Shown: positions 8,585 through 12,324 of the stretch, in pieces
Numbering within the stretch: position 1 is the first letter of the stretch
Layout of the letters: every line of letters begins with the position of its first letter
Assembly: GCA_013824835.1 (NCBI GenBank)
Contig: PNOM01000002.1
Location: 1-64,000, forward strand
Source: Syntrophus sp. (in: bacteria)
GTDB taxonomy: Bacteria; Desulfobacterota; Syntrophorhabdia; Syntrophorhabdales; Syntrophorhabdaceae
Reading direction: 5' to 3'
DNA length: 64,000 bases
Notes under the pieces: generated by a model
What the model saw: the letters and a program-made list of their open reading frames with translations, nothing else
The model's database searches: none
What the model was told of the DNA's origin: nothing
Program-made: the position numbers and the translations under genes

Positions 8585-9043
8585 ATGAGGGCTGTAATAC
8601 AGAGAGTCAAAGAGGCTTCAGTAGAAACTGAAGGAGAATCCGTGGGCAAGATAGGGCCGGGACTCCTTGTGCTTCTCGGGATCCGCAACAATGACACCCT
8701 TAGGGACATCGATTGGTTGGTGGAAAAGATTATCAACCTCAGGATATTCGAGGCAGACGAGGGCAGGCTCGATAAGTCTCTTCTCGACGTGAACGGGGCT
8801 CTCCTCCTTGTTTCCCAGTTTACTCTCTACGGGGACTGCTCCAGGGGGCGGCGGCCGTCATTTACTGATGCCATGGCCGCAGGAGACGCGAAGGAGGTCT
8901 TCGAGCTCTTTGTGAAAAAGGCCCGGGAAAAGGTGAAAAAGGTGGAGACAGTGGTCTTTCAGGCTACCATGGACGTAGCCCTTATCAATGATGGACCGGT
9001 TACGCTGATCATAGATTCACCGAATTCTATTCAGGCCCGGTGA
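8585..9043 (+). CDS. dtd: D-aminoacyl-tRNA deacylase
   Basis: A 152-residue DTD family protein that hydrolyses D-amino acids mischarged on tRNA. Both active-site segments are present: SQFTLYGD (about 79-86) and the cross-dimer motif NDGPVT (about 138-143), in place of the more common NxGPVT with another residue. Length and N-terminus (MRAVIQRV) are typical. Its 3' end overlaps the convergent DUF1847 gene by 17 nt. Confidence 0.95.
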   Translation: MRAVIQRVKEASVETEGESVGKIGPGLLVLLGIRNNDTLRDIDWLVEKIINLRIFEADEGRLDKSLLDVNGALLLVSQFTLYGDCSRGRRPSFTDAMAAGDAKEVFELFVKKAREKVKKVETVVFQATMDVALINDGPVTLIIDSPNSIQAR

Positions 9044-9713
9044 TCCATGCATAGTAATTGCCAGAGGTGTTTATACATGCAAGGGGGTTGTGGCCTGCCA
9101 CCCTGTCTTTCACTGCAAGCACTGTTGTAGGGGCATCAGCATATTTAAAATACATGGAATCATGTCCTACACAAAGACCGAGGAGTATATTGAAATTCGT
9201 TTTGGCCTCGTTGACTACCATAGCCTGGAGCACAGGGTTGCACATAGACTCGTGCTGATCCCTGTAGATCTTTTCCTCGTTTTGTATCCCTATCTCCTCT
9301 TTCGGGACTGAACCGACCTTGCAGATCACCGATACTACTTCAAAATCATGATTTTCAAAAATCTGTGCAACTATGGCTGCCTCTTTCTGCAAACCGGCAC
9401 AAAACACAAGGCCGAGCCTTTTATAGTTCATCTTCCGGGCAAATTCCATAATCTCAAGGATTCTCGGCTTTGTGGGATGCATGATATAGGGTTTTCTGTC
9501 GCGCCCCCCATAACACTCGCCTTCCTGTATCGTGGCCTGTCGGGCAAATTCATGGAGATCTGCGCTCTTATATGCCTCCCGCGCCTTGTCGAGCAGCATC
9601 TTCCTGCCCTTAGTGGGGCATCCCTTTCCTCCTTTGCCTTGAGGGGTCATGCAAGCCCGCTCTTTTGAAGGCACTTCACACCCTGCACATGCTGCCCCAT
9701 GGACCTTCTTCAT
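9027..9713 (-). CDS. DUF1847 cysteine-rich metal-binding-type protein
   Basis: A 228-residue protein with an N-terminal Cys set (CAGC at about 9-12, further Cys near 21 and 32) and an Asp/Cys-rich body (LVFCAGLQKEA, GLCVGHDSMYFKYA, NPLACINTSGNYY). These blocks match my recollection of the DUF1847 family, annotated as putative metal-binding proteins in anaerobes. Function is unknown. The ATG overlaps the stop of the MoaE-like gene (ATGA), so the two are translationally coupled. Its placement beside NifX-type and FmdB genes suggests a metal-cofactor link. Confidence 0.7.
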   Translation of the reverse strand: MKKVHGAACAGCEVPSKERACMTPQGKGGKGCPTKGRKMLLDKAREAYKSADLHEFARQATIQEGECYGGRDRKPYIMHPTKPRILEIMEFARKMNYKRLGLVFCAGLQKEAAIVAQIFENHDFEVVSVICKVGSVPKEEIGIQNEEKIYRDQHESMCNPVLQAMVVNEAKTNFNILLGLCVGHDSMYFKYADAPTTVLAVKDRVAGHNPLACINTSGNYYAWITGPE

Positions 9714-10063
9714 TTACCAATCTCCTTTTCATCTACGATGTTCGTTTTCACTATGGCGAGGAGTTCCTGAAAGACAGGCAGGACATCGGTCCTGAATCTG
9801 CCTGCGACGAGGACATACATAATGTCATCTCCTACGCGAAGCTCTCCCTCATTGATCCAGACCCGTATCTCTACGATCCCGTCCCGTGCTTTCATTTCCC
9901 TGACCGTTGATTCCAATAGCCCTTTATTGTAAGAAAGAACCATCGCCTGCACGGTGCATCCATCCTTCGATGTTCCCCGTACCACCCCGTTATGAACAAG
10001 TATCATCCCCAAAGATTGGCTATCGGATTTCTCTTTTACTTCCCGTATCCATCCATCTATCAT
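9710..10063 (-). CDS. MoaE-like small protein
   Basis: A 117-residue protein resembling the C-terminal half of MoaE, the large subunit of molybdopterin synthase: GELRVGDD, then VLVAGRFRTDVLPVFQELLAIVK. Lys106 and Lys113 are seven residues apart, the spacing of the catalytic Lys pair of MoaE, but the Trp normally before the second Lys is missing. The ATG at 10063 follows a strong AAGGAGGG site and was preferred to an ATG at 10081. No moaD is adjacent, so true molybdopterin synthase activity is uncertain. It is coupled to the DUF1847 gene. Confidence 0.6.
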   Translation of the reverse strand: MIDGWIREVKEKSDSQSLGMILVHNGVVRGTSKDGCTVQAMVLSYNKGLLESTVREMKARDGIVEIRVWINEGELRVGDDIMYVLVAGRFRTDVLPVFQELLAIVKTNIVDEKEIGK

Positions 10064-10090
10064 ATCACACCCTCCTTTCATGAGTCTTTC

Positions 10091-10913: not shown

Positions 10914-11168
10914 ATGCCTATTTACGAATACCGCTGTGAGACATGTGGAGAAACGAATGAATTCCTCGTTTTTGGAACAGAGGATGGTCTCAAATGCAAA
11001 AAATGCAATGGAGAGGCCCTCACAAAGCTCATGTCTGCCCCGAATATCTCGGTCGCCGGCGGGTCGTCTTTACCTGGTTGCGGATCATCCTTCCCGGGTT
11101 CCGGTATGGGCGGCTGTGGCGGTTCACCTGACATGTGTGGAAATCCGGGTGGCTGCTGCGGAATGTAA
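10914..11168 (+). CDS. FmdB-family zinc-ribbon protein
   Basis: An 84-residue protein. The N-terminal zinc ribbon has two CxxC pairs (YRCETCGE and LKCKKCNGE), as in the FmdB/CxxC_CXXC_SSSS family. The second half is rich in Gly, Ser and Cys (GMGGCGGSPDMCGNPGGCCGM) and probably disordered or metal-binding. FmdB-type proteins are thought to be regulatory or structural; function is unproved. It is the last gene of the DUF134 unit, ending just before a strong hairpin. Confidence 0.85.
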   Translation: MPIYEYRCETCGETNEFLVFGTEDGLKCKKCNGEALTKLMSAPNISVAGGSSLPGCGSSFPGSGMGGCGGSPDMCGNPGGCCGM

Positions 11169-11228: not shown

Positions 11229-11756
11229 CTAAAGCCCTTTTTTTTCAAACCACCTGAACATGAGTATCCCCAGAACGACAAAGACCACAATGACAATCCA
11301 GTGGTTTACCCCGAGTATCTGAGGGATGGTAATCTTTCCATAATCACCCCAGGTTAACACTGTATTTTTCAGGGTCGGATAGAACTCCGCAAAGATACCT
11401 GCCCCGACAAGCATACCGATGATTCCCCAGACCGCATCCCACCGCCCCTCCCCGAGGGCCCCCAGTTGAGTTCCCGGACAATAACCGAGGACCCCCCAGC
11501 CCATACCGAAGATGAGGCCGCCGATGATATTACCGCCCAGAATCGTTGATTTTACGGAAAGCTTTATCACACCAAGGTCTTTAAGGAGATATACCCCTAC
11601 CATCGCAACGAGGACTGTAGTGAACATAAATTTTACGATGGTCATGTCCTTGAGGCGCAACGCCCCTATCTGCTTGTCATAGCGGATTACCCTTCCTTTC
11701 TGAAGAAGAAAACCGAATATAATGCCTGTTACAAGGCCGTATGTAAGCTCACCCAT
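11229..11756 (-). CDS. YeeE/YedE half-transporter, second subunit (GYCPGT type)
   Basis: A 175-residue integral membrane protein of the YeeE/YedE (DUF395, COG2391) family with about five hydrophobic helices. The conserved Cys motif GVLGYCPGTQLGALGEGRWD (about 74-93) marks the C-terminal half of the full-length thiosulfate/sulfur-compound transporters. I chose the ATG at 11756 because it overlaps the extended upstream gene by 8 nt. It pairs with the 11749-12279 gene to form a complete transporter. The cargo (sulfur or selenium species) is inferred from the family only. Confidence 0.85.
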   Translation of the reverse strand: MGELTYGLVTGIIFGFLLQKGRVIRYDKQIGALRLKDMTIVKFMFTTVLVAMVGVYLLKDLGVIKLSVKSTILGGNIIGGLIFGMGWGVLGYCPGTQLGALGEGRWDAVWGIIGMLVGAGIFAEFYPTLKNTVLTWGDYGKITIPQILGVNHWIVIVVFVVLGILMFRWFEKKGL

Positions 11757-12279
11757 GGGTGTCACCCCCTTTATAGAGGATGGCTGCAATAATCATCCCG
11801 CCGACAAAAAAACAGATTAATGAGATATACCCGCTGACTGCTAACTGGAGCGAACCGCTCAGTCCATGACCACTCGGTCACCCGTCAGCGAGGCGGGCTC
11901 CGAACATGGCAACTGCACCGCCCGCAAAGGCAGCAATTGCCCTCTTTGCCCTGCCCGGGCCGAAGCGGCCTTCCCACATAGGCGGAACTGCCTGGAGCCG
12001 AAAAGATTTTGATGTGGTGGATGCAATAAGAGAACCAAAGAAAATACCGATCACAAAAAGGAACTGCCAGTCTATTTTTGGAAGTTCCTTTTTGAAGTAT
12101 TCCATGCGGGCCACTTTTTCCGCGCTGAAAACCCTTTCAATATATCCCGCAGATCGGACAAAGGTCGTAGAAACCCCTACATATTTGCCGGTAAACCAGA
12201 CTGAGAAAACGAGGAGCAGGCCTGTGAGCGCCCCGGCGAGATAGGGATTCCAGCCTTTGTTTTCATTTTTGTCGCTCAT
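11749..12279 (-). CDS. YeeE/YedE half-transporter, putative selenoprotein (in-frame TGA)
   Basis: The first half of a split YeeE/YedE transporter. Conventional translation stops after 133 residues at the TGA at 11880-11878. The frame then continues for 42 codons (PSGHGLSGSLQLAVSG...) and ends overlapping the ATG of the second subunit. Family members have GCTSGHG or similar at this point, so the TGA replaces the conserved Cys, which in thiosulfate transporters of this family contributes to the substrate path. A hairpin with a GGUUC apical region begins 14 nt after the TGA. Full length would be 176 residues including Sec. GGAGG precedes the ATG at 12279. No sel genes lie in this window, so the decoding machinery must be elsewhere. 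Confidence 0.75.
11844..11863 (-). promoter_or_regulatory. SECIS-like hairpin downstream of in-frame TGA
   Basis: On the minus strand ACTG-AGCG pairs with CGCT-C-CAGT (8 bp, one bulged C), with an apical region that can be read as GAGC-GGUUC-GCUC. The apical loop starts about 21 nt after the TGA, within the 16-37 nt range described for bacterial SECIS elements, and carries the G-U seen in the E. coli fdhF loop. Confidence 0.6.
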
Positions 12280-12324
12280 AAGAAACCTCCATTATTTTTT
12301 ATACCTTTTTTTATCGTTGAGTTA

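Follow-up and report, generated by a model that had tools for sequence, protein, structure and literature searches.

We suggest that a half-transporter of the YeeE/YedE type encoded by Syntrophus sp. is a selenoprotein. It is very probable that the UGA at codon 134 of its gene is read as selenocysteine and that this gene and the following one encode the two halves of a single transporter. Both genes lie in the stretch of 64,000 nucleotides analysed here, which we call the window (contig PNOM01000002.1, positions 1 to 64,000). Decoding of this UGA as selenocysteine, at a conserved cysteine of the transport path, had been the original prediction, and it is borne out by the TGA and Cys codons of relatives, by the selenocysteine machinery and by a conserved hairpin.

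Gene layout and reading frame

The features of the gene pair, all on the minus strand, are the following.

12286–12290, minus strand: Shine-Dalgarno-like GGAGG of the Sec subunit
11749–12279, minus strand: putative Sec-containing half-transporter, C-terminal-half YeeE/YedE type, PmpA-like; 176 residues, the putative Sec being residue 134; the coordinates include the stop
11878–11880, minus strand: in-frame TGA, the putative Sec134 codon, aligned with Cys293 of TsuA from S. thermophila (6leo)
11843–11864, minus strand: bacterial SECIS-type hairpin, nine pairs with a one-base bulge
11763–11770, minus strand: Shine-Dalgarno-like AGGGGGTG for the partner, within the coding sequence 3′ of the Sec codon; relatives have GGAGGT there
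11749–11756, minus strand: 8-nt overlap between the stop of the Sec gene and the start of the partner
11229–11756, minus strand: partner half-transporter, N-terminal-half type, PmpB-like; 175 residues, PF04143, aligned to residues 4–176 of 6leo
11478–11480, minus strand: Cys93 of the partner in the motif GYCPGT, aligned with Cys91 of TsuA

From 12279 to 11752 the minus strand encodes MSDKNE...ARLADG-TGA-PSGHGLSGSLQLAVSG...GGDTHG. The frame thus consists of 133 codons, the TGA at 11880–11878, 42 further codons and a TGA stop at 11751–11749, exactly as had been predicted. The read-through product matches the Pfam family PF04143 (Sulf_transp) with 86.9 bits and an E-value of 2.3e-24 (gathering score 27). 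As this match covers residues 7–163 and extends across the TGA, the codons behind the TGA do continue the family, which had also been claimed. On the profile the product aligns to positions 174–310, the C-terminal half, and the partner to positions 16–150, the N-terminal half (63.8 bits, E-value 2.5e-17, gathering score 27). Since different halves of the profile are matched, the YeeE/YedE transporter is split over the two genes, with the C-terminal half first. In the window the pair is a stand-alone two-gene unit. Modeling of the single Sec subunit with AlphaFold2 gave a structure of low confidence (pLDDT 55, pTM 0.30), too poor for a comparison with solved folds. A simple codon-usage screen for other window genes with TGA read-through missed the Sec gene itself and is therefore uninformative.

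The ATG of the partner begins at position 11756 and overlaps the end of the Sec gene by the predicted 8 nt. In most relatives the overlap is the 4-nt ATGA, with GGAGGT shortly upstream. The stop–start overlap occurs in Cys forms as well and therefore did not evolve for selenium control. If ribosomes halt at the UGA, the partner start would be uncoupled and the partner poorly translated. Because the ribosome binding site and the start of the partner are located where the read-through region ends, both halves would depend on the supply of selenium; we put forward this control of the partner level, which is read from the gene layout, as a tentative proposal.

Relation to TsuA and proposed function

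Both halves align with TsuA/YeeE from S. thermophila (6leo, 8j4c, 8k1r), such that Sec134 corresponds to Cys293 and Cys93 of the partner to Cys91. For Sec134 the alignments to 6leo and 8k1r have E-values of 7e-5 to 1e-4 and share the context G-C-x-x-G-H; the number 293 comes from counting residues along the printed alignment. Both Cys293 and Cys91 are essential to TsuA (PMC11582611), and in the series of pore cysteines Cys293 comes first (PMC11073785). TsuA is a single chain with nine helices and three pore cysteines, whereas the transporter of the window is encoded by two genes, the C-terminal-half gene being the first, and has a putative Sec at the first pore position. Furthermore, Ile or Leu is found in place of Cys22 in 63 of the 69 family members compared. 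The third pore cysteine is absent, and two of the three positions that serve as the TsuA criterion (Cys22, Cys91, and Cys293) are kept; against the NCBIfam TsuA models the pair scores far below the cut-offs. Cys93 is the sole cysteine of the partner, and its position is occupied by Cys in 68 of 69 sequences and by TGA in one.

PmpA and PmpB from Serratia are likewise two half-length proteins, which each keep one conserved cysteine, at the places of Cys293 and Cys91, and which have been proposed to pair (PMC11582611). They comprise about 130 residues, whereas the proteins of the window have 176 and 175 residues and the putative Sec is situated in the PmpA-like half. By analogy to PmpA/PmpB, we infer that the pair may form a heterodimer with Sec134 as the first and Cys93 as the second station of the path.

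The proposed mechanism is as follows: SelB with Sec-tRNA would decode the UGA at codon 134, guided by the downstream hairpin. Sec134 would then replace the outermost pore cysteine (Cys293) and Cys93 would stand for Cys91, so that Sec and Cys together would line a single path. The cargo of this path would be a reduced sulfur species, either thiosulfate or a persulfide or zero-valent sulfur, or else a selenium counterpart, and the selenol would speed up the first contact or make it less prone to loss by oxidation. We consider it likely that the substrate is a sulfur species.

It is considerably less likely, though still to be taken seriously, that the protein is a selenoprotein as read here but serves selenium supply, importing a selenium species instead of taking up sulfur. 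YedE has been tied to selenium metabolism in the abstract of PMC5322559, a Methanococcus YedE is cited in PMC11582611, and the NCBIfam selenium-YedE models match the pair weakly. These matches are, however, far below the cut-off and weaker than those to the TsuA models. Moreover, the transporter would be an odd choice as the sole selenium importer since its own synthesis needs selenium. The gene neighborhood of eight relatives (L101–L108) also speaks against a selenium importer. Directly downstream, about 1.15 kb from the start of the Sec gene, these relatives encode an FAD-dependent pyridine nucleotide-disulfide oxidoreductase of 460–480 residues, which is nearest to the CoA-disulfide reductases but below their cut-offs, and such a neighbor fits the handling of sulfane sulfur or persulfides. 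A CoA-disulfide-reductase-like protein is absent beside the window pair and was not found elsewhere in its genome, and no TusA/YeeD partner adjoins the window pair. Uptake of a reduced sulfur species remains the function that we favor.

Two other loci of the window may be mentioned. An FmdB-type zinc-ribbon protein (10914–11168, plus strand) adjoins the transporter pair and has Cys codons here; Sec forms of FmdB are a listed selenoprotein family. At 9027–10081 on the minus strand a DUF1847 protein overlaps a MoaE-like protein, which is far below the MoaE equivalog cut-offs.

Selenocysteine machinery

A search of the genome for selA, selB, the tRNA-Sec, and selD had been proposed as a check, and all four are present: SelA with 581 bits (cut-off 268; encoded on this contig ∼7.5 kb outside the window), SelB with 383 bits (cut-off 242), the tRNA-Sec with 71.4 bits (cut-off 47), and SelD with 370 bits (cut-off 125). 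The selD gene carries an in-frame TGA of its own (VELTKYVRGAGUASKIGPGDLADIL), and we take the TGA in GAGUASKI to be the usual Sec site of SelD.

SelA is over the cut-off in 46 of the 51 genomes with the TGA form. Of the five others, four have SelB and the tRNA-Sec over the cut-off and one has SelB fragments only. Since SelA is present in most Cys-form genomes as well, its presence indicates compatibility with selenocysteine and does not discriminate between Sec and Cys forms. Two genomes of one family (G112 and G307, f34) combine the TGA-form transporter with SelB and tRNA-Sec over the cut-off while SelA was not found in their assemblies, which are 98–99% complete; SelA may have diverged or been overlooked there.

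The SECIS-type hairpin

A hairpin that begins at the 14th nucleotide after the TGA and has a GGUUC apex had been described, and it is indeed present. With the T of the TGA counted as 0, nucleotides 16–24 pair with 28–37, and the apex begins with GG about 22 nt past the TGA. Taken by itself the window hairpin has a z-score of −0.85 against shuffles over 51 nt and a p of ∼0.03 among synonymous recodings of the same peptide, and neither the hairpin nor the window had an Rfam match above the gathering score.

The comparison with relatives gives a much clearer result. All nine pairs are kept at 93–100% in 44 distinct Sec forms, among which compensatory changes from C-G to T-A occur at the pairs 23/29 and 18/35. 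The alignment of these 44 forms contains 390 paired cells as compared to 379 ± 1.6 after shuffling, and none of 2000 shuffles reached as high a value. In five more Sec forms LSGLAQ replaces LSGSLQ, and despite this change of the protein a shifted stem is perfect. The hairpin is maintained in TGA forms but broken in most Cys forms: in 12 Cys forms more than 48% identical to the window protein, pairing drops to 42% at 23/29, 25% at 22/30, 67% at 21/31, 67% at 20/33, and 58% at 17/36. The mean hairpin energy is −10.3 kcal/mol in Sec forms and −6.6 kcal/mol in Cys forms (Mann–Whitney p 4e-4, uncorrected for relatedness). As judged from these alignments, the hairpin is far beyond chance once relatives are compared and only mildly unusual in the window alone.

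Sec/Cys exchange in relatives

A TGA/Cys swap in relatives had been suggested as a further check, and it is found. Among 69 distinct family members, the window counted, the codon for residue 134 is TGA in 51 and TGC or TGT in 18, and in the members checked the TGA is replaced by Cys codons alone. In genome collections TGA-form relatives occur all over the phylum, the others having TGC or TGT. By parsimony on a quick tree 10 changes between Sec and Cys are counted, of which well-supported branches force just three. One relative (L037), whose protein is 80% identical to that of the window, has a TGC yet retains the full hairpin, and because of this retained hairpin it looks like a recent change from Sec to Cys.

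The region behind the TGA has a mean pN/pS of 0.21 relative to the window (62 sequences; 0.26 upstream of the TGA), which argues for a protein under constraint, and 19 aligned sequences show no variation in the motif PSGHGLSG that follows the TGA. Decayed flanks, which would have spoken against selenocysteine, were not encountered: the relatives carry TGA or Cys forms with intact flanks.

These results bear on whether the TGA instead ends translation or arose by mutation in a decaying pseudogene, in which case the 133-residue product would be either the actual protein or what is left of a dead gene. Translation with table 11 does yield an ORF of 133 residues, and the window hairpin alone is unexceptional against shuffles. 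On the other hand, a stop or a decaying gene accounts neither for a TGA recurring at the same codon with Cys codons as the sole replacements, nor for an open downstream frame under purifying selection with an invariant motif, nor for a conserved and co-varying hairpin, and we regard this explanation as very improbable. An erroneous TGA at 11878–11880 in place of TGC or TGT, as could be suspected in a draft genome of 235 contigs, is practically excluded because the same TGA recurs in separately assembled genomes of many species. The comparative evidence thus rules out a pseudogene, a sequencing error and read-through by chance, and we retain selenocysteine as the reading of codon 134.

A possible second Sec position

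Three species that belong to a single distant genus have a TGA in the other YeeE half, within the motif GYUPGTS at the position of Cys91 (L119:3385–3387 in genome G118; same site in L121 of G083 and L120 of G204). Behind it the frame stays open for 90 codons, which encode the expected further family sequence, and in all three species a stem of six pairs (GTGCTG/CAGCAC), whose loop contains GG, is located downstream; this hairpin alone is not significant against shuffles. The C-terminal half of this lineage has a TGC (codon checked in G083). SelB is over the cut-off in G118 only, where it is full-length. None is over the cut-off in G204, the assembly of which is only 73% complete, nor in G083 though it is 98% complete, and the latter counts against the Sec reading. 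The G083 cluster seems to include an NrfD-like membrane protein and a rhodanese-like protein (translation read by eye).

In the literature searched we found no earlier report of Sec at the Cys91 position. Going by these sequences, a second Sec position in the N-terminal half of the transporter family is possible. One could further speculate, with somewhat less than even confidence, that lineages differ in which of two consecutive pore positions carries Sec, Sec being a repeated functional solution for a chalcogen relay, with production of the pair tied to selenium via the gene overlap.

Comparison with published selenoproteins and significance

The original prediction of a likely new selenoprotein does not hold at the family level, as a Sec-containing YeeE/YedE protein (PF04143, WP_012471001.1) is listed in passages of reviews from 2022 (PMC9312934) and 2026 (PMC13188914), the latter giving the motif GUxSG. 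The published family and the window protein agree in family and motif: the Pfam family is the same, Sec replaces the conserved Cys, and GUxSG compares with GUPSG in the window. In these passages of both reviews the listings come without gene architecture, SECIS alignment or distribution, and YeeE is not named in the main text of Zhang and Gladyshev (2008) and Peng (2016), the reviews' sources for the family. What is added here is the split two-gene form, its wide distribution, the repeated exchange of Sec and Cys, the conserved stop–start overlap, the CoA-disulfide-reductase-like neighbor in eight relatives, and the TGA at the pore cysteine of the partner (GYUPGT) elsewhere.

Selenoproteins are mostly soluble redox enzymes. 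Plain annotation with table 11 will call the Sec gene truncated in most of the TGA-form genomes. The present family is a membrane transporter with putative selenium in its path, which is found clade-wide and has been swapped to Cys several times, and it thereby offers natural Sec/Cys pairs. Such pairs could be used to address a question raised for TsuA, namely whether contact between the pore cysteines and the substrate is limited to weak binding or involves an exchange of chalcogen atoms.
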